Shown one piece after another: positions 29,864 through 40,672 of a DNA stretch of 64,000 nt; position 1 is the stretch's first letter; each line of letters begins with the position of its first letter. The stretch is from Nitratireductor aquimarinus (GTDB lineage: Bacteria > Pseudomonadota > Alphaproteobacteria > Rhizobiales > Rhizobiaceae), in the NCBI RefSeq assembly GCF_017255295.1, contig NZ_JAFKDE010000003.1, positions 372,001-436,000 of the forward strand, written 5' to 3'. The notes beneath the pieces are model-generated. The model saw only the letters and a program-made list of their open reading frames with translations, did not search any database and was not told the DNA's origin. Position numbers and translations under genes: made by a program.

Positions 29864-31159
29864 CTAACCGGCGATGGCCCGGCGACTGCCTGTCAGATAG
29901 GCGGTGAAAGCGTAGACCATGGCCGCGAATGCGCAGCCCACCAGCGCCGCGGAATTCTGATCCACGGTGAGCAGAAGGAGCGTCACAATCACGCCCGCGT
30001 TCAGCGACAGGATGGCGGCAGGCGCACTGACCCGGTGGCCCAGGACCGCTGCAAGCACGGTCGGCAGGAACACGGCGAGCGATGAAAAGGCGGCGATGAT
30101 GGAAGACAGGAGGTCACCGAACAGCGCCCCGATCAGGGCCATGCCGGCGAAAACGGCGACCACCATCAGCTGTAACTGCCTGAGTGGCAGCATCGTGCGC
30201 TCAAGCCCGGTCATCAGCGGCATGACAAATGTGTCCATGGTCGACATGACCACGGCGATCAGCATCAGGTCGACGATCCAGCCATGGCCCGCCGGCACAA
30301 GACCGTGCAGGCCGCTCGTTATCGCGCCCTCCACTGCGCCGCCGAGCCCAAGCCAGACGATGCCGAGATAGCACAGGAGGCAAAGCGGGGCGCCGGCGAG
30401 AAATGCCCTGCGCGCCACCTGCGGATCGCGCGCCGTCGCCATGCGCTGCCAGTTGTCCACCGCCAGCACCGCGCTGACCGGGATGAAGAGCCAGACACCG
30501 ATAAGGAGCGGCAGCCGATAAGGGCCCAGATCGAAGAATGGCCCGGTCTGCGGAACCGCACCCAGATTGGCGAATGTCAAAAGCGCAATGCCGGCAACGA
30601 TGATGAGCGACTGCACGACATCCGTTTCCGTGGCCACGCGATAGCCGCCGATGGCCGTGTATGCGCCGGCGCAAAGGGCCGCGAGCCCCACCGCCGCGAG
30701 CTGTGATACGGGCAGGATCGTCATCAGGATCGCCGCCAGCGCCAGCAATTGCACGGTCGCGCGCAGCAGAAACACGAACGCAATGGGCAGCCAGACCAGA
30801 AGGGGCTGCCGGATGCGGTGGGTGACCACGATCAGATCGATCAGCCCCCTCACCCCGTGCCGTTCAGAGAGCGCATGCACGTTCGGTGCGATGATTGCGC
30901 AGATCACGAGGCCAAGCGTGTAGGCGAATGCCAGCGAAACGCCGATCACGGGGCTCGCCGCCGAAAAAAGCATGATCGCCACGAAGGTGCCGATTCCGAT
31001 ATTGCCGCAGACAATGCCCGCAAGCGTGCCCCAGAACCCCGTGCGGCCGGAATTGAAGATGAAATCGTCGCGCGTTCCCGAAGGCGCGCGCCAGAGCGCA
31101 TAGAGCGCCGGAAGCGCCAGAACCGCGCCGATCAGCGGCAATTGCAGATTGATGTCCAT
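29864..31159 (-). CDS. Sodium/solute symporter (SSS)-like membrane protein
   Basis: A 431-residue integral membrane protein with about 12-13 hydrophobic segments. The N-terminal part (DDFIFNSGRTGFWGTLAGIV and GNIGIGTFVAIMLF) resembles the first helices of SSS-family symporters such as PutP and SglT, where the unwound helix binds sodium. The ATG at 31159 (MDINLQLPL) is preferred over one ten codons upstream. The substrate is unknown. It is divergent from the LemA gene. Confidence 0.7.
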   Translation of the reverse strand: MDINLQLPLIGAVLALPALYALWRAPSGTRDDFIFNSGRTGFWGTLAGIVCGNIGIGTFVAIMLFSAASPVIGVSLAFAYTLGLVICAIIAPNVHALSERHGVRGLIDLIVVTHRIRQPLLVWLPIAFVFLLRATVQLLALAAILMTILPVSQLAAVGLAALCAGAYTAIGGYRVATETDVVQSLIIVAGIALLTFANLGAVPQTGPFFDLGPYRLPLLIGVWLFIPVSAVLAVDNWQRMATARDPQVARRAFLAGAPLCLLCYLGIVWLGLGGAVEGAITSGLHGLVPAGHGWIVDLMLIAVVMSTMDTFVMPLMTGLERTMLPLRQLQLMVVAVFAGMALIGALFGDLLSSIIAAFSSLAVFLPTVLAAVLGHRVSAPAAILSLNAGVIVTLLLLTVDQNSAALVGCAFAAMVYAFTAYLTGSRRAIAG

Positions 31160-31301
31160 CGTCGGTCTTCTGTCCCGGTTCCCGCCCACTGAAACGCCGA
31201 TTCGCGTGACGGGAGACTAGGCGTGCCGCCAGACCGGAAGCACCGTCTGAACGGACAGTGTGGCCCCGTTTCGATGCCACAAGCGCCATCTGAAAGTGCT
31301 C

Positions 31302-31323
31302 ACTCCCTCAAATGGGAGAGGCG
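31302..31323. repeat. CTCCC-N6-GGGAG motif, copy 1 (upstream of LemA gene)
   Basis: ACTCCCTCAAATGGGAGAGGCG occurs here and, identical over 22 bases, at 39408-39429; the 14 bases CAAATGGGAGAGGC also occur, inverted, at 35480-35494. The CTCCC and GGGAG arms form an imperfect dyad. The copy ends 57 bases before the LemA start codon, in the divergent gap with the symporter gene. It may be an operator, or a fragment of a dispersed Rhizobiales palindrome. Confidence 0.55.
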
Positions 31324-31380
31324 CTTGGTTTCCCCATTTGCTCGATTGCCGGCAGCATTCTGCAGAAAGTGAAAGCCGGC

Positions 31381-31956
31381 ATGACAACCATACTGATCAT
31401 CGTCCTCGTCCTGTTTGGCGGGTTCGTCTTCTTCCAGAACCGCCTCGCATCGGCCCGCAATTCCGTACTGAACGGCTTTTCCGGCGTTCAGGTGCAGCTC
31501 AAGCGACGACACGATCTGGTTCCCGCGCTCGTCTCGGCGGCGCGCAGCGCCATCGCACAGGAAAACCGCCTGTTCGACAGCATTCTGGACGTGCGTGAAA
31601 AGGCGGTCGCCGCACTCAATGGCAGGATGGAAGAGGTTCAGGAGGCCGAGGCCGAACTGACGGCGAGCCTGCGCAGCTTCTTTGGCTATACGGAAGATCA
31701 CCCGGAAATCACCTCGACGGGGAACATACTCGAGCTGCAGAAGCAGCTTGAAGAGACCGAAGACCAGGTCAGCGCCGCGCGCCGGCTCTACAATGGCAAT
31801 GTCGAGCGCTACAACACCATGCTCGATGCGATCCCCTCAAGCTGGGTCGCCGCCATGCTCCGTTTCGAGCGGGCAGACTTCTTCGCGCTCTCGGATGCCG
31901 AACGCAAACATGTCGAGGCCGTGCCGGCCATCGATCTGCCGGGAGCGCAGGCGTGA
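31381..31956 (+). CDS. LemA family protein
   Basis: A 191-residue protein with one N-terminal membrane anchor (TTILIIVLVLFGGFVFFQN) and a helical periplasmic body. LemA features include the FSGVQVQLKRRHDLVPALV segment and the later YNGNVERYNTML helix. LemA proteins are widespread, and their function is poorly known. The ATG at 31381 matches the family start. It overlaps the DUF3137 gene by GTGA, a pairing often seen for these two families. Confidence 0.92.
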   Translation: MTTILIIVLVLFGGFVFFQNRLASARNSVLNGFSGVQVQLKRRHDLVPALVSAARSAIAQENRLFDSILDVREKAVAALNGRMEEVQEAEAELTASLRSFFGYTEDHPEITSTGNILELQKQLEETEDQVSAARRLYNGNVERYNTMLDAIPSSWVAAMLRFERADFFALSDAERKHVEAVPAIDLPGAQA

Positions 31957-32978
31957 ACGCCGTCAGCGGCCACTGGGATCCCGTTCAGGGGACCATCTCG
32001 GTCGAAACCGACGACATCTCGCAGATCAAGACCGGCATCACCCTGCCCGCTCCGGTTCGGCGTTTCCTTCCCATCGCCGCGCTTGCCGCCATGTTGTGGA
32101 CCTTCGTGCAGGGTTTCCTCGCTGACGGGTTCCCCTTCATTCCGGTCGCCGTCACCACGGTTCTTTTCGGCGCATTCATCTTCGCCGCAGAGCTGGAGAA
32201 CGAAGATGGCCGAAAGACCCTGCGGCGCGTCAGGCTCGCACGGCAGAAGGGCTGGACCTACACCGGCAAGCTGATGGAGCGGGTGATGGCCTATCAAACG
32301 GCCTGGTCCTCGGATGGTGCGGAACGGCGCGCACAACGTGTGAAATCGGAACGCGCCAGAGCCGTCGAGACCCTTGTTCCGGAGCTGACGAAGCTTCAGG
32401 TCGGCGCGTTCATGGGCGCTGAGTTCGACGGCGAATTCTGGGGCAAAAGCACCAAAGACGACCTGCCTTTCTGGATGGCCATCGGCGCCATGCAGATGGA
32501 GGCCGGGCTTGCGGCAGACAAGTCGCTGCGTGAAGACGCGCATGGCGGCAAAGGCGGCTTCGGCGTCTTCTTCTCATTGCTCGGGGCCTACAGAATTGGC
32601 CGCAAGACAGGCGTTCGCGCCGTCATCCGCCCGGAAAACCTGGTCAACAGGGGGCCGCTCGACCGGGACATCAAGACCGAATCCGTGCAGTTCAACGCCG
32701 CCTTCAACATCACCGGAACAGCAAAGAGCGGTGATGAAAACGCGGTGGAGCACGACATTCTGCGCATTCTCACCCCCGCGACACAGGCGACCATGCTCGA
32801 CCTGCTTCAGCGCTACCACAATGTCGGTTTCGTGGTGGATGACGATGTTCTGTTCTTCATGGCGCAGGACAGGCTTGTGGGCAAGAACGCCAACCCCGAC
32901 CGGATCGACACACTTCTGGCCGGCATAGCGGCAGACTTCGAAGAAGCGAAATTCGCCATCAAGCGCTACGTCGAATAG
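31953..32978 (+). CDS. DUF3137 domain-containing membrane protein
   Basis: A 341-residue protein with two closely spaced hydrophobic segments (RFLPIAALAAMLWTFVQG and VAVTTVLFGAFIFAAEL) and a large soluble C-terminal domain. The domain is of the DUF3137 type, commonly encoded next to LemA; landmarks are GFGVFFSL and FNAAFNITGTAKSGDENAV. It starts with GTG overlapping the LemA stop codon. It probably acts with LemA at the inner membrane; role unknown. Confidence 0.85.
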   Translation: MNAVSGHWDPVQGTISVETDDISQIKTGITLPAPVRRFLPIAALAAMLWTFVQGFLADGFPFIPVAVTTVLFGAFIFAAELENEDGRKTLRRVRLARQKGWTYTGKLMERVMAYQTAWSSDGAERRAQRVKSERARAVETLVPELTKLQVGAFMGAEFDGEFWGKSTKDDLPFWMAIGAMQMEAGLAADKSLREDAHGGKGGFGVFFSLLGAYRIGRKTGVRAVIRPENLVNRGPLDRDIKTESVQFNAAFNITGTAKSGDENAVEHDILRILTPATQATMLDLLQRYHNVGFVVDDDVLFFMAQDRLVGKNANPDRIDTLLAGIAADFEEAKFAIKRYVE

Positions 32979-33168
32979 GCGCGTAGCCATCTGTATCCTG
33001 TTCCGGCTGGCATCGCTGATGCCGGCCCGGTCTGCGCATTCATGCGGACGTCTGGTGTTTCCACCTGACTGCAAAATGCTCTAGGTTTCCCCCGTTTCGG
33101 GGAATCTGCACGCCCCGTTCAGTGTCGGTTCAGCCGGCGTCTGCCAGAAGGGCATGCAGGAGGAACCC

Positions 33169-34989
33169 ATGGAAGCCAAATACTTAGCGCGTGTGAACGG
33201 CCCGCCGCTGTTCTACCGGAAATGGCGCTCGGCATCGCAGCCGCGCACTTCCGTCCCGCGCAGGGCCGTGTTCATCGGCCACAGCCAGCCCACCCATTCC
33301 GGCATGCTGTCGGATCTGGCGGAAGGGTTTCGCGCCGCCGGCTGGGATGCCCATTCCGGCGATATTCGCGGCCATGGCAAAAGCACGGACGCCCAGGTGC
33401 CGCTCGGCCATCTGGACACCGGCGATGGCTGGTCGCTGGCCGTGGACGACATGCGCCATCTTCTGGAACGCAGCTTTGATGGCGTCGGGTGGGAAGACCG
33501 CCTCGTCGTGGTGCCGAACATCACGGCGCTGATGACGCTTGAAGTGATGAAGACCTGGCACGACCTTGCCCGCCACATCGTGCTCATCTCGCCGGTTCCC
33601 AACCAGAGAACGCTTGCCCTGTTCGGCAAAGCCTTTTCAAAGGTCCGCATGCGTCTTCGCGCCGCCGACCAGCCGGACGAACAGATCCTGCATCACCTCT
33701 ATGCCTTTCTCGGCGCGCATCTGCGCGACCGGGAGCATCCGGCAGATGTCATCAGCACCGACCGGGACCTGATCCGCGAGATCGTGTCCGACCCGGAAGG
33801 CTGGCCCATTCCCAGCCCCGCCTACTGGTCGAACATCTTCTCGGGCATGCTGTCCGCCTGGAAATGGCCAAACAATGCGCGCCTCAAGCCCGGCACCCGG
33901 GTTCTGGTGATGTTTGGCGGTGAGGACGCCATGCTGCGCGATGGCGGGTTCCTGCCGCCCATCGAACGCTTTCTGGCTGAAGTCGGCATTGAGGACGTCG
34001 CCGCCGAACGTGTCGAAGGCGTACGCTCCGGCCTGTTTCTGGAAGAAAGGCGCTTCGGCATTTCAAAACGCATTCTCGACTGGGTCGGTCAGGATGGCGC
34101 AGCGACCGCTGACGCACGCTACAGCGAAGTGGACGTCGCACAGCTGGCGAGCGATGTGATCGCCCGCCTCGGCGGCGGAGCCGCGCCCGCAGACATGCGC
34201 CCCGACGAACTGGTCGAGCTCTGCTACAACGCCATTGATGACGAGACGCGCTGGACCGAGGTGATTTACCGGATCATCTACGAGGCCGAGCAGGATGGCG
34301 AGATGACGGAGGCCGAACTGGCCGAGCGCATCGAACGCCTGATGCCCCACTGGGAGCGGGCCTTCAGCCTCAACCGGCAGGTGATGATGAACGCCACGCT
34401 GGGCGTCCTGCTTCAGGCGGTCATCGACAAGCTGCAGATCGGCATTGCTATCCTCGATGCCGATGGCGCACTGCTGCACGCCAATACGACCTACCGGGAA
34501 ACGCTCTTACGTATTTTTCCCAAAACTTCCCCCGGTACCGATGGCGATGCCTTCAGCGCGGCTGCCACCCGCCGACTGTTCGTTTCAGGCGCATCCGCCG
34601 AGGACACCGGAAAGGTCAACAATGACCGGATCGTGCTGCACGACAATGCGCCGGTCGGCTTCCATTTTCACCCGCAGGCACTCCGGCAGACCGGACTTCA
34701 GCGCCAGGGCCCGGCAAGCATCCTCATCCTGCGGGCTACGGAACGCGACGATGACGACAACACGCGCCGCGTGCTCACCGAGCTGGCCTATGGGCTGACC
34801 GGCAAGGAAGCGGAAATCGCGCTCCTGATCGCCGAAGGGATGTCGCTGGATGAGATCGCCGGAGAACTGGGCATTCTTGTCAGCACCGCGCGCGGGCACC
34901 TGAAGAAGGCGTTTCAGAAGATGAGCGTTCACAGCCAGGCCGAGCTGACGGCCCGGATCATGTCCGGGCCGGTGGGCTGGCTGAAATGA
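33169..34989 (+). CDS. LuxR-type regulator with degenerate alpha/beta-hydrolase and PAS-like domains
   Basis: A 606-residue one-component regulator. Residues about 30-305 align with serine aminopeptidase-like alpha/beta hydrolases (AVFIGHSQPTHSGM, then GDIRGHGKST and VLVMFGGEDAML). The nucleophile elbow GHSMGG is replaced by PNITAL (116-121), and the usual His region reads GVRSGLF, so Ser and His of the triad are missing. A helical linker (345-410) and a PAS-like region (about 415-520: KLQIGIAILDADGALLHANT) follow. The end is a LuxR helix-turn-helix (about 541-597: LTGKEAEIALLIAEGMSLDE). The start at 33169 has AGGAGG five bases upstream. The hydrolase part is probably a ligand sensor. Confidence 0.85.
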   Translation: MEAKYLARVNGPPLFYRKWRSASQPRTSVPRRAVFIGHSQPTHSGMLSDLAEGFRAAGWDAHSGDIRGHGKSTDAQVPLGHLDTGDGWSLAVDDMRHLLERSFDGVGWEDRLVVVPNITALMTLEVMKTWHDLARHIVLISPVPNQRTLALFGKAFSKVRMRLRAADQPDEQILHHLYAFLGAHLRDREHPADVISTDRDLIREIVSDPEGWPIPSPAYWSNIFSGMLSAWKWPNNARLKPGTRVLVMFGGEDAMLRDGGFLPPIERFLAEVGIEDVAAERVEGVRSGLFLEERRFGISKRILDWVGQDGAATADARYSEVDVAQLASDVIARLGGGAAPADMRPDELVELCYNAIDDETRWTEVIYRIIYEAEQDGEMTEAELAERIERLMPHWERAFSLNRQVMMNATLGVLLQAVIDKLQIGIAILDADGALLHANTTYRETLLRIFPKTSPGTDGDAFSAAATRRLFVSGASAEDTGKVNNDRIVLHDNAPVGFHFHPQALRQTGLQRQGPASILILRATERDDDDNTRRVLTELAYGLTGKEAEIALLIAEGMSLDEIAGELGILVSTARGHLKKAFQKMSVHSQAELTARIMSGPVGWLK

Positions 34990-35004
34990 GGGGCCGCCCG
35001 GTTT

Positions 35005-35418
35005 TTAACGTCGCCCCGGCGCATAGACCTCGCAGCCCTGCCGAAGCGCGGCCCGCCTGTCCGGCTGGCATTCACAGACCGGCGTAATGCCCGAGCCGGT
35101 CACGCAGGAGACGCGTTTGACGTAACAACCCTGTGCGCGCACCGTGGCCGCATGATTGAAACGCCCGTCCCGCTGCCGCTTGGGAAAGCCGCGCGTTGAA
35201 CGCGCAAGCGCCACCGAGAAGCGTCGTCCGTGCTCATTGCGCATCTTGCCCTGCCAGTTGACCCAGGCCCGCGCCACGGCTCCCTTGCCGGTGCGGTGTC
35301 CCTTGCTGCTCGCCTCGACCGCCTGAATGGAACAGATCGTCTTGGCCATCGCGGCAGGCGCATGGCCGACGATGGCAAGGCCCAGCATGGCAGCCAGTCC
35401 AATCAAAAATCTTCGCAT
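35005..35418 (-). CDS. Secreted basic cysteine-containing protein of unknown function
   Basis: A 137-residue precursor with a clear signal peptide (MRRFLIGLAAMLGLAIVGHA then PAAMA). The mature part is Arg/Lys-rich with six cysteines. It contains an AVARAWVNWQGKMRNEHG segment like the A-x-x-W...G-x-x-F pattern I recall from small secreted alphaproteobacterial proteins. The ATG at 35418 has GGAG eight bases upstream. It is convergent with the LuxR-type regulator gene and downstream of a copy of the CAAATGGGAGAGGC motif. No enzyme motif is seen. Confidence 0.7.
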   Translation of the reverse strand: MRRFLIGLAAMLGLAIVGHAPAAMAKTICSIQAVEASSKGHRTGKGAVARAWVNWQGKMRNEHGRRFSVALARSTRGFPKRQRDGRFNHAATVRAQGCYVKRVSCVTGSGITPVCECQPDRRAALRQGCEVYAPGRR

Positions 35419-35479
35419 CTGGTTCTCCTTCACCCTGCGTTCTTCAATGCAGGCAGGAGACACGATCATGCGGCGCGTG

Positions 35480-35494
35480 GCCTCTCCCATTTGG
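35480..35494. repeat. CAAATGGGAGAGGC motif, copy 3 (upstream of secreted protein gene)
   Basis: On the minus strand this reads CAAATGGGAGAGGC, as in the copies at 31302 and 39408, but with ACCACC instead of ACTCCCT before it, so only one arm is intact. It lies about 62 bases upstream of the start codon at 35418, in the same orientation relative to the gene as copy 1 has to LemA. Confidence 0.45.
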
Positions 35495-35530
35495 GTGGTT
35501 TTGCGACGCAGTACTGCGCAACAATCGCCC

Positions 35531-36424
35531 CTATCGGCACACGATGAAGCTGAACGCCGCGCAGCCGCCACCCTGACAGTAAGCGCCCACATTGAGCGCC
35601 TGAGCTGCCGTCGTCACGCCAAAACAGGCTGCATTGCCATGCTGCCTTGTGAGGCAGAAAGCGCGGGCGGCAGGCAGACCGCAATCACTGAGCGCATTGC
35701 CTGCCATCCTGAGACAGAGGGCAACCTTGTACCCGGCCATATGCATGAAATCCGGGTTTTGGTAGACCTCGCCTGCGCAGGGCTTTTCGGCATAGCCTTC
35801 AAGCTGCGCGAAATCAGAACCCTCTGTGCTGCTTTTCTTCCGGTCCGGGCCGCCTTCCCCCTCAAACAGATCAATTGCCCTGGACGGTTCTTCGCTGCCA
35901 TCGAAAAGCTCGATCTCTCCGGACGTCTCGTCCGCGCTGTCGGTATCGAGTTTAACCGGATTGTCGCGCTGGCCTTCCGAGGGAAAGGCGTCTTCCAGAT
36001 AGGTTTCCGGAAATTCGCTTGCGTAGCGGTCACGCGCAGCGCTCCTGCTTTTCTCGCCCGAAAGGACCAGCGCATCGTCTGGCGAAACAGCCATACCCTC
36101 ACAGCCAAAGCCCGATGCGCAGCGCAGAAGATCGGCATCCGCCGTTTCCACGGGCTCGGCAGCCGTCTCCTTCGCCGCCTCAAAGGCATCCTCGACATAA
36201 AGATCGGGATGATCCTGCGCATAGCGGTCACGCGCTTCCTGCGCCGAGCGTACATCCACAAGGCCAAGCGCGTCCTCCTGCGACACGCCGCCCGCGGGAC
36301 AACCGAACCCGGCTGCGCATCGAAGCACCTGCGCATCCGGTTCCTGCCCATGGGTCACGGTCGTCATGGCCGCGAGCAGCATTGCACCTGCCAGATGCCG
36401 CCAGACCGTGTGGAGCGCGATCAT
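35531..36424 (-). CDS. Exported protein with an internal duplication and cysteine-rich C-terminus
   Basis: A 297-residue precursor with a signal peptide (about 1-26, cut near THG-QEPD). Residues 34-81 and 100-147 are diverged copies of one unit: LRCA-x-GFGC...DAL...ARDRYA...P-x-x-Y-x-EDAF. An acidic linker (150-200) leads to a C-terminal domain with eight cysteines (216-296) and a repeated G-x-x-x-A-x-x-C rhythm, suggesting disulfides. The start overlaps the stop of the VWA gene upstream (ATGA), so it is the last gene of a three-gene operon. I do not recognise the family. Confidence 0.75.
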   Translation of the reverse strand: MIALHTVWRHLAGAMLLAAMTTVTHGQEPDAQVLRCAAGFGCPAGGVSQEDALGLVDVRSAQEARDRYAQDHPDLYVEDAFEAAKETAAEPVETADADLLRCASGFGCEGMAVSPDDALVLSGEKSRSAARDRYASEFPETYLEDAFPSEGQRDNPVKLDTDSADETSGEIELFDGSEEPSRAIDLFEGEGGPDRKKSSTEGSDFAQLEGYAEKPCAGEVYQNPDFMHMAGYKVALCLRMAGNALSDCGLPAARAFCLTRQHGNAACFGVTTAAQALNVGAYCQGGGCAAFSFIVCR

Positions 36425-38418
36425 TCCGATCCGGCCTCAATCGTGAAGCGATCAAAGGCGATATGACTTTCGCCCGGACGCGCCTTGTGCCAGTGCCCGG
36501 CGAGAACGGCCGGCTGACCGGAAAGACGCAGCACGGTCATCGGTTCTGTCTCGAAGCGGAACGTGTCGGCCGGTCGTCCGTTGGCTTCGGGCAGCTCCAT
36601 GTCGATGGCCGCCGTCACCTGCCGTCCGCGCCGCTTGAGCCGCAGTTCCGCGCCCTGCGTGCCGAGCGCTTCCAGAACCCGGTCGCCATAAGCGCGGTCG
36701 CCGTCCTGACAGAGCCTGGCGACAATCGGCCCGTCAAAGAGGTTCGTATCGAACCTGGCTTCCTCCTTGCCATCGCTCACGCGGATCAGAGACAGGTTCA
36801 GATAGGCCCCGCAGCCCTTCCGCCAGACCCATGCCATCGCACCAATCTGGCTGTCCGCATCGTCCTGAACACTGAGCCAGACATTCTCATAACCGGTCTG
36901 CTCATGAATCCTGAAATCGAGCGCAAGGTCGAAATCCCCCCCAGGCAAGGCATGATCGAGCACATAGCGGTTCTGAGCCTTCGCATCGTCATGATTGGCA
37001 TAGCGGCCCAGCACCGAGGTGAAAAGCATGCCATCGCCGGTGAAGGCCGTGAGGTTTTCAGCCGGGTTTACCACCTGCCAGGCCGCATCCAGTTCCGGCC
37101 CGTCGAAATTCTCCTCAAACACAGCCTGAACCACCGGTTCAGGCTGTGGCGCAGGTTTCGGCTCGGGCATCTGTCGCTCGGCCTCGGCGACAACCTCGCC
37201 AACGGCGCGCGCAAATTCGTCCGCATTGCTGGCAGAGTAGTAATTGCCGTTCCCGTTATCCGCGATGCATTGCAGGGCTGCGTTTTCCTCATCGCTCAGA
37301 TCGAATCCGACCACATGCACCCGCGTGTTGATACCGCGCTCGGCAAGGGCTGCCGCCGCTGCGCACGGGTCCCCGCCGCAGGTTTCCAGACCATCCGAGA
37401 TCAGGAGTACATTGGCCGGACGGCCCGATTGCGGCACTGCGTCGGCAGCGCGCATGAGCGCGTCGGCAATCGGCGTCTTGCCGCGCGGCGTGATGCCTTC
37501 AATCGCCGGCTTCAACTGCCCGCTTTCATAATTGGCAACCGGATAAATGATCTCCGTATCGCCGCAGTCGCCCTCGCGGCGGTGGCCATAGGCCATCAGC
37601 CCCACATTCGTGTTGGCTGCCAGATCGCCCATCAGACCCGACAGAACCTGTCGCGCCGTGGTGATCTTCGCCACACCGTCGATCTGCCCCCACATGGAGC
37701 CTGAACCGTCCAGAACGAAAAGAAGATCGCTGCCGCCTTCGGCCAGACCATTGCCCGGCAGGTCTCCCTCTTCCATGCCCGGCACGATGGAAGACCGGTC
37801 GTCAGCGCCCGCACCCTCCGGCGTGCGGTCTCCGCCCGATCCGGCGCCGGAAGCCCCCCCGCCCGAAAGCGTTGCCTCCATGGCCGGATCGGAGCGGATT
37901 TCAAAACCCTGCCCTTGCGCCAGCTCCGACAGCGACCAGTTGTCATCCTCGGAATAGATGTCGTTGATCTGCCACGCCCCGTCCGGGGCCTCGATCAGCG
38001 TGTAGATGAAGTTGCGCGGCGCGCCCATATTCGTGAATGTCACGTGGATCTGCGCCGCACCGCGCAGAATGGGCGCATCCGCATCCGGCGCGATGTTCAG
38101 ATTGGCTATGTCCGCATCCTGTCCGCCATAAACCGGATCGAACATCAGCGCGCCCTGCAGATCGTCATGGGCAAGCCCGTCCACGAGAAAGCGTCGCGAG
38201 GCCTTGCCATCATTGAGAAGCGGCTCTTCATTGTTGTTGAAGCGGCGGCTGTGTTCGGCAAAGAACATGCGCACCACCTCCACGGCGTCATCAATCTCGG
38301 CCGCTTCCGCCTGCAGCGCCCCCATGGGAATGCAAACGGCCAGCGCCGTGCCCAGCATGGCGCGCCACAACCCTTGCGCGAAACACGTCTTGCCCATCAT
38401 TCTGCTCACCCTGCTCAT
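36421..38418 (-). CDS. Exported VWA-domain protein with C-terminal jelly-roll-like domain
   Basis: A 665-residue protein with a signal peptide (about 1-40), an N-terminal domain (41-175) somewhat like DUF3828, a Gly/Ser linker and a VWA domain (about 229-410). The MIDAS is complete: DGSGS in LLFVLDGSGSMWGQ, TP in GKTPIADAL, and the later aspartate in LLISDGLETCGG. After a Pro/Glu linker, residues 440-660 form a concanavalin-like domain that is clearly paralogous to the protein at 38415-39350. Start and stop both overlap neighbours by four bases. It probably mediates protein or surface interactions in the periplasm. Confidence 0.85.
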   Translation of the reverse strand: MSRVSRMMGKTCFAQGLWRAMLGTALAVCIPMGALQAEAAEIDDAVEVVRMFFAEHSRRFNNNEEPLLNDGKASRRFLVDGLAHDDLQGALMFDPVYGGQDADIANLNIAPDADAPILRGAAQIHVTFTNMGAPRNFIYTLIEAPDGAWQINDIYSEDDNWSLSELAQGQGFEIRSDPAMEATLSGGGASGAGSGGDRTPEGAGADDRSSIVPGMEEGDLPGNGLAEGGSDLLFVLDGSGSMWGQIDGVAKITTARQVLSGLMGDLAANTNVGLMAYGHRREGDCGDTEIIYPVANYESGQLKPAIEGITPRGKTPIADALMRAADAVPQSGRPANVLLISDGLETCGGDPCAAAAALAERGINTRVHVVGFDLSDEENAALQCIADNGNGNYYSASNADEFARAVGEVVAEAERQMPEPKPAPQPEPVVQAVFEENFDGPELDAAWQVVNPAENLTAFTGDGMLFTSVLGRYANHDDAKAQNRYVLDHALPGGDFDLALDFRIHEQTGYENVWLSVQDDADSQIGAMAWVWRKGCGAYLNLSLIRVSDGKEEARFDTNLFDGPIVARLCQDGDRAYGDRVLEALGTQGAELRLKRRGRQVTAAIDMELPEANGRPADTFRFETEPMTVLRLSGQPAVLAGHWHKARPGESHIAFDRFTIEAGSE

Positions 38419-39350
38419 TGCTGCCCCGGACGTTTGATGCTGAACCGGTCGAACTCGGCGAGTGTTTCCCCGCCCTTGGCCTTCTTGCCCTGCCCGACCA
38501 TGAAAGCGGGGCTGCCGAAACCGGCCATGCGCGCGACCCGGCCGCCGGAAAATTCCTGCACGCCGCCTACCGCCTCGCCTTCACCTGCGGGCAAATCGAG
38601 CGTGACCTTCGCCTGGTAGCGCAATCCGCGCCTGGAAAGCGTGAGAACGAATCCTTTTTCATAAAGATCGGCCAGGACCCGATCCCCGTAGGCGCGCCCG
38701 GTCTTGTTGCAGATATTCCGGGCTGCCGGCCCGTCAAAGAGGTTGACGGACATCGCAGAAGGCACGGCGGGTTCTTCCGGGTTGAGCGGCTGGTTTGCGA
38801 CCGTGCTGATATAGAGCGCCGGTCCACAGCCCTTGGTATGAACATAGAGATGCGCGGCGACGAAATTCTCATCGCTCTCGCGCAGTCCCAGCCACACTTC
38901 ATCAAAGCCGGTCTTGGCGTCGAGGCGGCCGCCAAGCGAGATGTCGAAATCGCCGTCCGGCATGGCGCCCTTCAACTGGTAGATGTTGCGCGCATCCACA
39001 TTGTCGAAACCGTCCCTGCCGCCGCTGGTGATGGCAAGCAGCATGCCCCGCTCGGCAACATACTGGTCGCGGTCCTCGTTCAGAACCTGCCAGTGCGCGG
39101 CGAGCCCGTCATCCTCGAAACGGTCCTCGAAAGGAAGGGCGATGGCGGTTGCGGGCGTCTCGCCTTCATCGGCGGCAGCAAGCCGCGCCTGCTCCTCCTT
39201 GCTCAGCGTCTGGGCACGGGCGTCCGCCCCGGCATTCACGAACGCCACGCCCGCAAGAAGCGCCAGAATAAGAGAGGATCTCAGCATTTCCCTGAGAGGG
39301 CTGCTGATCGCAAGCGAAGAAGTGCGCGGGATGGCTGCTGCGCCGGACAT
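38415..39350 (-). CDS. Exported paralogue of the VWA protein's C-terminal domain
   Basis: A 311-residue precursor: a long basic N-region, a hydrophobic core (SSLILALLAGVAFVNAGA) and a probable cut after ADARA. The mature part matches the C-terminal domain of the next gene at many points: HWQVLN, GDFDI, KTGFDEVWL, KGCG, NLFDGPAARNIC, GRAYGDRVL, RRG and FDRFSI. The fold looks like a LamG/concanavalin jelly roll; no catalytic residues are evident. ATG at 39350 has GGAG nine bases upstream; ATG at 39287 would start directly at the signal core. It is first in the operon with the VWA gene. Confidence 0.75.
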   Translation of the reverse strand: MSGAAAIPRTSSLAISSPLREMLRSSLILALLAGVAFVNAGADARAQTLSKEEQARLAAADEGETPATAIALPFEDRFEDDGLAAHWQVLNEDRDQYVAERGMLLAITSGGRDGFDNVDARNIYQLKGAMPDGDFDISLGGRLDAKTGFDEVWLGLRESDENFVAAHLYVHTKGCGPALYISTVANQPLNPEEPAVPSAMSVNLFDGPAARNICNKTGRAYGDRVLADLYEKGFVLTLSRRGLRYQAKVTLDLPAGEGEAVGGVQEFSGGRVARMAGFGSPAFMVGQGKKAKGGETLAEFDRFSIKRPGQQ

Positions 39351-39407
39351 GAAACGAATCTCCATCAATCGATCAGATTGATTGGTAGTCGCTCACGCTT
39401 GTGCTGA

Positions 39408-39429
39408 ACTCCCTCAAATGGGAGAGGCG
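39408..39429. repeat. CTCCC-N6-GGGAG motif, copy 2 (upstream of exported operon)
   Basis: Identical over 22 bases to 31302-31323, and preceded by GTGCT in both places. It lies in the 95-base gap between the oxidoreductase stop and the start of the exported operon, ending 58 bases before the start codon at 39350. Its orientation relative to the gene is opposite to copy 1, which is acceptable for a dyad. Confidence 0.55.
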
Positions 39430-39445
39430 GAGCTCCCCTCTCGCC

Positions 39446-40672
39446 TCAGGCTTTCCCCATAAACGCCGCCTTCAGCGCCGCCGGTCCTTCCAGTATCTGC
39501 GCCTCGCTCGGCGAGAATCCTGCCGCCAGCATCCGCCGGCCCAGCATGTGTTCTCCGGGCCGGTTCACGGTCTCGACCGCAACAAGCCGGTCTCCTGAAA
39601 ACAGATAGACGCTGAACGCGCCGCTCTCGGCCTCGCCCGCCACAATCTCGCGATCCACGCCGAAAGGCAGGCCAACCATCTGCAGCTTGCGTTCGCCCTG
39701 ATCCGACCAGAACCAGGCAACCGCATCGAAAGCGGTCTCCTGCCCCAGCATGGCCTTCGCCGCGCAGCGCGCCTGATCGGTCGCGTTCTGTACCGATTCC
39801 AGCCGCAGGAAACGCTCCGCCGCAACATGCGGGAACGAAACACAATCGCCAATGGCGTAGATGTCGGGCGCGCTGGTGCGGCACGCCGCATCCACGCGAA
39901 TGCCATTGTCGCAGACAAGACCTGCCTGTTCGGCAAGCGTGGTGTTCGGCAGCGCACCGATGCCCACCAGCACAAGATCGGCTGCAAGCTCCTGCCCGTC
40001 TGATGTCACCAGCGCCCGCACCCGCCCATTCTCGCCAATCAGGCGCTCGACGCCCGCGCCGGTGATGACTTCGCAGCCAAGGCTCTCGTGATAGGCCAGC
40101 ATATGCGCGGCAATCCGCGCACTCACCGCACGGCCCAGAAGGCGCTCTGCGGCTTCCACCACCCGGACCCGCTTTCCCGCCATTGCCATGGTCGCGGCAG
40201 CCTCAAGGCCGATGAAGCCGCCCCCCACGACGACGACGTTTTGGGCCGTTTCCGCAGCCTCGCGCAACTGCCGCGCATCGGCGCAGTCGCGCAGGTAGAA
40301 CACGCCATCAAGGTCCGCACCCGGCACCGAGAGAGGCCGCGCATGGGCGCCTGTCGCCAGCAGAAGCCGGCTCCAGTGAAGCACGCTCCCGTCTGAAAGC
40401 GTCAGCGTATGGGCTTCGGGGTCAATGGCCGTAACCGTTTCGCCGAGGCGCAGATCGATGCCCTGCGCATCATAAAAGGCCTGCGCCTTGAGGATCTGCG
40501 GTTCGGCATCCAGCGCCTTCAGAAAGGCCTTGGAAAGCGGCGGCTTGTGGTAGGGAAGTTCGGGATCAGCCGAAATCAGGGTCAGCTTCCCGGCATAGCC
40601 TTCCTCGCGCAGGCTTGCCGCCGCCTGCACGCCGCCATGCCCCGCTCCCACGATGATGATGTGCTCGTCCAG
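39446..40672 (-). CDS. FAD-dependent pyridine nucleotide-disulfide oxidoreductase (ferredoxin reductase type)
   Basis: A reductase that passes electrons from NAD(P)H to a ferredoxin, as in rhodocoxin or putidaredoxin reductases. The FAD motif is HIIIVGAGHGGVQAAASL, the NAD(P)H motif VVVVGGGFIGLEAAATM, and the second FAD motif DIYAIGDCVSFP. No ATG, GTG or TTG lies at the family's N-terminus. A CTG at 40672 gives MDEHIIIVG and has GGAG eight bases upstream, so CTG initiation is the best fit. GTG at 40708 or 40762 would add a Cys/Arg-rich leader unlike the family. It follows the isoaspartyl peptidase gene. Confidence 0.88.
   Translation of the reverse strand: MDEHIIIVGAGHGGVQAAASLREEGYAGKLTLISADPELPYHKPPLSKAFLKALDAEPQILKAQAFYDAQGIDLRLGETVTAIDPEAHTLTLSDGSVLHWSRLLLATGAHARPLSVPGADLDGVFYLRDCADARQLREAAETAQNVVVVGGGFIGLEAAATMAMAGKRVRVVEAAERLLGRAVSARIAAHMLAYHESLGCEVITGAGVERLIGENGRVRALVTSDGQELAADLVLVGIGALPNTTLAEQAGLVCDNGIRVDAACRTSAPDIYAIGDCVSFPHVAAERFLRLESVQNATDQARCAAKAMLGQETAFDAVAWFWSDQGERKLQMVGLPFGVDREIVAGEAESGAFSVYLFSGDRLVAVETVNRPGEHMLGRRMLAAGFSPSEAQILEGPAALKAAFMGKA

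Follow-up and report, generated by a model that had tools for sequence, protein, structure and literature searches.

The locus examined here raises the question of what a hydrolase fold that lacks its catalytic residues does when it is fused to a DNA-binding domain, and which genes such a protein would control. The window, meaning the whole stretch of 64,000 nucleotides that was analysed, holds one such gene, called REG here, for a regulator with pseudo-hydrolase, PAS-like and LuxR parts. The reading we prefer, and regard as fairly probable, is that REG is a one-component regulator in which a pocket of lipase origin senses the ligand, and that it governs a local regulon of membrane and exported proteins.

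Domain architecture of REG

The open reading frame spans 33154-34989 (+) and encodes 611 aa from its first ATG. The likelier start is the ATG at 33169 (606 aa), with AGGAGG at 33158-33163, 5 nt upstream, and the Met at this start is invariant in a nine-row alignment. Residue numbers below follow the 611-aa reading frame, save for the PAS-like domain, which is given in model residues. The features of the gene are as follows.

33169..34989, + strand: REG, 606 aa (alternative ORF start 33154)
33256..34044, + strand: alpha/beta-hydrolase domain of the monoglyceride-lipase type (Pfam Hydrolase_4, residues 35-297; model and Foldseek)
33514..33531, + strand: dead nucleophile elbow PNITAL, with Ile123 at the Ser position (alignment with nine GHSMG hydrolases)
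33925..33927, + strand: retained triad residue Asp258 (GGEDAML), invariant in the alignments
34027..34029, + strand: lost catalytic His, now Ser292 (GVRSGLF); Ser, Thr or Ala across 12 members
34438..34734, + strand: PAS-like domain (model residues 424-522, from secondary structure; Pfam PAS_8 below cut-off)
34795..34950, + strand: LuxR/GerE helix-turn-helix (Pfam GerE over cut-off)

Pfam searches assigned Hydrolase_4 (serine aminopeptidase S33) to residues 35-297 (E 4e-13, 49.6 bits against a cut-off of 27) and GerE to residues 548-599 (E 1e-8, 34.8 bits against a cut-off of 23.5), and PAS_8 matched residues 419-450 at 14.9 bits, below its cut-off of 21.8. Autoind_bind, the TraR-type LuxR domain, was absent from the 15 Pfam families that matched REG up to an E of 1. 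An AlphaFold2 model built on a 42-row alignment (pLDDT 82.7, pTM 0.74) ran from an N-terminal alpha/beta-hydrolase through a long helical linker and a PAS-like sheet to a helical HTH at the C terminus, and the order of elements within the sheet was PAS-like as judged by eye. When the model was compared with the PDB using Foldseek, the best ten matches were eight monoglyceride lipases, one carboxylesterase and one lipase, with TM-scores by target of 0.72-0.79 in nine and 0.68 in one, and monoglyceride lipases (6eic, 7ozm, 7l4u) led the ranking. A profile of the hydrolase domain and its stand-alone cousins retrieved esterase 5o7g/5olu first, followed by lipase 6khk and monoglyceride lipases.

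In an alignment with nine stand-alone S33 hydrolases, all nine of which carried GHSMG and RH at the same columns, the nucleophile Ser was replaced by Ile123 and the catalytic His by Ser292 while Asp258 was retained. The oxyanion-loop HG of S33 hydrolases reads HS in REG. Homologue searches yielded 12 distinct full-length members: that of the window, L001-L004, L006, L009, L010 and L048 (61-64% identical), L049 (45%), L035 (40%, a second copy in genome G001) and L050 (36%); L008 is the same gene as L003. Ser and His were lost and Asp258 kept in all 12, that is in the window and in 11 relatives at 36-64% identity. The elbow reads PNIT in nine members, PNIS in L049, PNIG in L035 and ANIG in L050, and the His position holds Ser in ten members, Thr in L006 and Ala in L050. 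As judged by alignment and by the predicted structure, the N-terminal domain of REG shows a monoglyceride-lipase-like, dead hydrolase fold.

A preliminary description of this DNA had read REG as a dead hydrolase fused to PAS-like and LuxR domains. The letters it quoted (GHSQPTHSGM, DIRGHGKST, PNITAL within VVVPNITAL, GGEDAML, GVRSGLF) are all present, and structure prediction with Foldseek confirmed the hydrolase fold. The loss of Ser (Ile123) and His (Ser292) proved common to the whole family, with the PNITAL elbow conserved as PNI or ANI in 12/12 and no intact-triad homologue of this architecture among the members. The fusion also stood, with GerE over its cut-off and the PAS-like part visible as a sheet in the model at a sub-threshold PAS_8 score.

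Gene neighbourhood and a shared dyad

REG lies among genes for membrane and exported proteins, and a dyad site precedes three of these neighbours. Distances are counted from gene starts at 31381, 35418 and 39350 that were chosen by reading.

29864..31189, - strand: sodium:solute symporter-like protein (Pfam SSF marginally above threshold, 23.4 against 22.8 bits)
31304..31319, + strand: dyad TCCCTCAAATGGGAGA, in the gap separating lemA from the symporter-like gene, 61 bp upstream of lemA (likely start 31381)
31381..31956, + strand: LemA-family protein (Pfam LemA E 4e-39)
31953..32978, + strand: DUF3137-like protein (sub-threshold, 14.5 against 26.1 bits)
35005..35418, - strand: small protein of 137 aa without family, predicted exported (by eye)
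35483..35498, - strand: dyad CCACCCAAATGGGAGA, differing from the consensus at one position, 64 bp upstream of the small exported-protein gene (likely start 35418)
35531..36424, - strand: protein with internal repeats, predicted exported (by eye), no family over cut-off
36421..38418, - strand: von Willebrand A-domain (VWA) protein, predicted exported (by eye; Pfam VWA E 5e-15)
38415..39350, - strand: relative of the VWA protein's C-terminal third, predicted exported (by eye; overlapping tblastn matches of both queries)
39410..39425, + strand: dyad TCCCTCAAATGGGAGA, 59 bp upstream of the exported-protein/VWA run, whose first gene probably starts at 39350

By eye, the 35531-36424 protein contains two internal repeats of the form LRCA.GFGC...DAL.L...ARDRYA...Y.EDAF, and the mutually related last third of the VWA protein and next exported protein (36421-39350) look LamG-like. 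A role in anti-phage defence was considered and rejected, as PADLOC gave no match for REG or seven neighbours up to an E of 0.01.

Conservation of the neighbourhood was assessed by tblastn of the window's genes against the relatives' loci, giving 12 loci with the window included. lemA and the DUF3137-like gene adjoined REG in 11/12 loci (the exception being the second copy of G001), and in nine of the 12 the three genes ran head to tail in one direction. The VWA-domain gene was found in 11/12 loci (exception L102) and the symporter-like gene in ten, with no match in L036 or L104. Gene order differed in the two distant members, L101 and L102, and neighbours were kept in relatives down to 36% identity. 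Relatives also carried additions, a canonical DUF3137 gene in L004 and L037 and a TMEM43 gene in L103 (2582-3736, +), and a dyad site lay about 90 bp before each of these added ORFs. A TMEM43 search of the window's own genome gave no match, with the controls likewise silent. TMEM43-like genes were also seen near REG's PAS-GerE sister genes L051/L052, at L160:2792-3883 (-) by Pfam and at L161:1212-2480 (+) by eye. In the second-copy locus of G001 (L104:11684-14097) two genes with SH3-like matches, one of them below cut-off, stand between the VWA gene and REG, and in G004 the DUF3137-like gene (L038:8367-9375, -) aligns as two overlapping pieces in different frames, pointing to a frameshift or an assembly error.

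The constant company of lemA and the DUF3137-like gene would also suit a different role for the dead hydrolase, as a platform for protein interaction or dimerisation that binds no small molecule, with LemA, the DUF3137-like protein or a membrane component as partner and the signal coming from the PAS-like domain or that partner. Many invariant positions hold charged or aromatic residues, which do not have to form the wall of a pocket, and this fits such a platform. The invariant elbow residues N122 and I123 and the invariant cap-region residues W217, P218, Y224, W236, W238 and P239 would instead suit a pocket, though the invariant positions are spread domain-wide. We consider the platform unlikely, yet a serious alternative to the sensing of a ligand by the hydrolase domain.

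Turning to the putative binding of REG to DNA, the motif shared by neighbouring promoters that the preliminary description had pointed out is real, and was found to be part of a 16-bp dyad, TCHCYCAWATGRGDGA. The REG loci served to define this consensus, so that finding it there was to be expected by construction, and the independent observations are its absence elsewhere in those genomes and its link to other members of the regulator family. In the window CAAATGGGAGAG occurred exactly three times, at 31309, 35482 and 39415; a shuffle comparison for the motif with up to 2 mismatches, which has exact matches outside its scope, gave 4 found against a mean of 4.8. Across the whole 4.57-Mb genome CCCAAATGGGAGAGG had three matches with at most 1 mismatch, all at the REG locus, and five elsewhere with 2 mismatches, while a backward control pattern gave three matches with up to 2 mismatches. 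Among 33 dyad sites with at most one mismatch, several of them from close relatives, positions 3 and 14 were complementary in 27 (C-G 15, T-A 7, A-T 5) and positions 5 and 12 in only 14. A sigma-70 promoter scan of 31150-39500 gave 0 matches against 1.3 in shuffles.

Exact dyads were then counted across genomes. The ten REG genomes, about 44 Mb together, contain 20 exact dyads, every one within 6.5 kb of a REG gene. In a draw of the order the exact dyad was present in 42/397 genomes, made up of all five REG genomes and 37 of the 392 others, and in a draw of relatives it was present in 10 of 94 genomes without a REG match. The backward control pattern matched in 16/397 genomes of the order draw, and a scrambled control dyad, CTHCCYAWATRGGDAG, was present in 5/199 genomes; the windows around its sites (n=5) held a weak regulator match in two (4e-13, 3e-7) and none below 1e-20, a sample too small for a verdict, and 120 control windows therefore served for the comparison. 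A regulator of the PAS-GerE family (E<1e-20) was found within 3 kb of 11/46 exact dyads in REG-less genomes as compared to 1/120 control windows (Fisher 3e-6), the control windows being three from each of 40 stretches in 21 site genomes at offsets picked by hand. At a looser threshold of E<1e-3 the counts were 14/46 and 3/120. The 11 regulator-linked dyads span 8 genera (two each from three genera), and one of the 11 sites (L138) holds a protein that was used in profile building. The adjacent regulator ORFs encode 240-423 aa and are therefore too short to include a hydrolase. The remaining 35 of the 46 exact dyads had no family regulator at E<1e-20 within 3 kb, and two REG-less genomes of the same genus (G003 and G008; L114 and L115) carry TCACCCAAATGGGTGA, a perfect dyad, in surroundings that lack all of the window's genes.

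The dyad could in principle be the site of another regulator, with REG beside it by chance, and its occurrence in REG-less genomes in both draws would agree with this. The enrichment of those REG-less dyads beside regulators with the same PAS-GerE part speaks against it, as do the ten REG genomes without exact sites elsewhere, and we judge this explanation improbable. Comparison across genomes shows the dyad to be tied to the REG locus and to REG's regulator family at the level of sequence; the motif behaves like an operator of that family, and we infer with strong confidence that REG would bind it. Taken as a whole, the interpretation given in the preliminary description is partly supported.

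Maintenance of the pseudoenzyme and exchange of the sensor domain

Selection on the hydrolase domain was estimated from G001 and G002, whose proteins are 97% identical, and this one pair gave dN 0.022, dS 0.458 and a dN/dS of about 0.05 for the domain. The domain is also 64-68% identical to that of four relatives. Because the site is dead in all members and dN/dS is low, the loss appears to be ancestral and the domain to have been maintained since; by its sequence it looks like an old, maintained pseudoenzyme.

Retention of some other activity, through a shifted nucleophile or Asp-based chemistry, would draw on the invariance of Asp258, His43, Ser44, His48 and Ser49 in the nine-row alignment. 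Against this, relatives carry Ser or Gly in place of Thr124, the neighbour of Ile123, the catalytic His has given way to Ser, Thr or Ala, and L050 does not keep His43, Ser44 or Ser49. No conserved nucleophile/base pair was seen, and such activity is most improbable. That the domain is a decaying, functionless relic of a fusion in which only PAS and HTH act is scarcely credible, as loss of the catalytic residues alone would fit decay but the low dN/dS (one pair), the 64-68% identity and the PNI/ANI elbow in 12/12 do not.

Full-length members were found in 6/100 relatives including the window's genome (7 genes), in five of ten genomes of the genus and in 5/397 genomes of an even draw of the order, window's included. 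In draws of the class (385 genomes) and the phylum (398) the window's genome was the only one with a full-length member; the order, class and phylum counts are lower bounds because only the three best candidates per genome were scored. The named matches came from two genera, Nitratireductor and Pelagibacterium, and from a metagenome bin that bears the label Rhodobacteraceae (L001); judged by such named relatives, the host stands close to Nitratireductor. Both genera belong to the Hyphomicrobiales, the window's order, and we read the family as belonging mainly to this order; the label of the bin, if right, argues against strict confinement.

The regulator half has many relatives that carry a different sensor. 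Stand-alone PAS-GerE regulators have an IYxA-W helix, then a domain of about 105 aa, then the PAS part. The spacing from IYxA-W to PAS was 109-121 aa in 28 of 82 proteins compared, a set in which the motif went unmatched in 44 rows, ten REG-family members and two C-terminal fusions included, and six matches were dropped as spurious or in the wrong frame or place (L006, L010, L068_3, L075, L150, L151). In REG the same spacing, taken by hand on the window's protein from the same anchor, is 13 aa. LuxR-type regulators with an alpha/beta-hydrolase at the C terminus were also observed (L014/L043, L041, L042, L076, L091, L096), the hydrolase being assigned by Pfam in L041, L042, L091 and L096 and by eye in L014/L043 and L076. 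Their spacing was 13-14 aa in L014, L041 and L096 and 35 in L091. By eye, Ser and His are gone in L041 and L042, Ser is gone in L091, and both appear intact in L043, L076 and L096. Hydrolase-bearing regulators of both architectures thus tend to be without the same domain of about 105 aa, which is expected if a hydrolase replaced an older sensor.

In a tree of 76 regulator halves the nine REG members included (of 12) formed a single clade with a support of only 0.65, and the six C-terminal fusions were scattered and not grouped with REG, the deep nodes being weakly supported. A two-gene form, with a separate pseudo-hydrolase beside a PAS-GerE gene, was not found around the sister genes L051 and L052 (12 kb and 4 kb). 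In L044 and L045 an S33-type hydrolase is fused, as seen by eye, to a methyltransferase-like C-terminal half.

Proposed mechanism and comparison with known systems

We propose that the N-terminal monoglyceride-lipase-type hydrolase lost catalysis long ago and would have been retained as a receptor. Its pocket and cap would hold a small molecule, probably one with an acyl or ester group, and leave it uncleaved; a lipase-like pocket that lacks nucleophile and base can hold such a ligand without turnover. Binding may alter the dimer, or how far the LuxR HTH that is linked to the PAS part is exposed, and the HTH dimer would bind the palindrome about 60 bp before three local genes. REG would in this way control its own operon (lemA-DUF3137-REG), the exported and VWA genes and perhaps the divergent symporter gene, which together would form a self-contained regulon related to the cell envelope. 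We infer with moderate confidence that REG senses a ligand, and the PAS-like domain rather than the hydrolase could be the sensor. The chemistry of the ligand and the choice between activation and repression are guesses; the position of the dyad would suit a LuxR-type activator.

A broader proposal, put forward tentatively and as possible rather than probable, is a class of bacterial one-component receptors in which a lipase-derived pseudoenzyme would read, in the cytoplasm, a product of membrane lipids such as an acylglycerol or a lysolipid, and would itself set the transcription of an envelope module. This module would comprise LemA, DUF3137, a symporter, VWA and further exported proteins and, in one relative, TMEM43. 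A single regulator family would have acquired hydrolases on more than one occasion, at the N or the C terminus, each in exchange for the same sensor of about 105 aa, and some of these hydrolases would have died to become pure receptors.

No description of a dead monoglyceride-lipase-like domain paired with a LuxR domain, of its conservation, operator or locus was found in the literature searched, partly with narrow queries, and passages of PMC2447327 and PMC4338825 held nothing relevant. Each half of REG is of a known kind, and the pairing, its conservation, the operator and the locus are what appears to be new. On the regulator side the closest systems are LuxR-family PAS-GerE proteins with the IYxA-W helix (about 370-440 aa), whose C-terminal half aligns with that of REG and some of which have the same dyad nearby; they carry the domain of about 105 aa and no hydrolase, and REG is the opposite. 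The C-terminal-hydrolase LuxR proteins share a regulator core of the same family and bear the hydrolase at the other end. BagY/FevT LuxR regulators, which are not known to carry a hydrolase, gave a weak PAS/GerE match to REG (NCBIfam NF041232, 36.5 bits, far below the cut-off of 700).

On the hydrolase side, the solved structures closest to the domain belong to S33 esterases and monoglyceride lipases. Rv0183, human MGLL and the B. coagulans esterase 5o7g have the same fold and motif order, but unlike monoglyceride lipases REG has lost Ser and His, reads HS for HG and carries a fused DNA-binding half. Plants use hydrolase folds as hormone receptors, and the likeness of REG to D14/KAI2, GID1 and RsbQ, in which a hydrolase pocket serves signalling, would be one of analogy only. 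Those proteins stand alone, signal via partners, have no known DNA-binding domain and keep most or all of the triad. A dead lipase fold joined directly to a DNA-binding domain would amount to a bacterial counterpart in a single protein, amenable to purification, crystallisation and screening. The three short palindromes offer a ready reporter, and the locus would open a way into LemA and DUF3137, about whose roles little is known.
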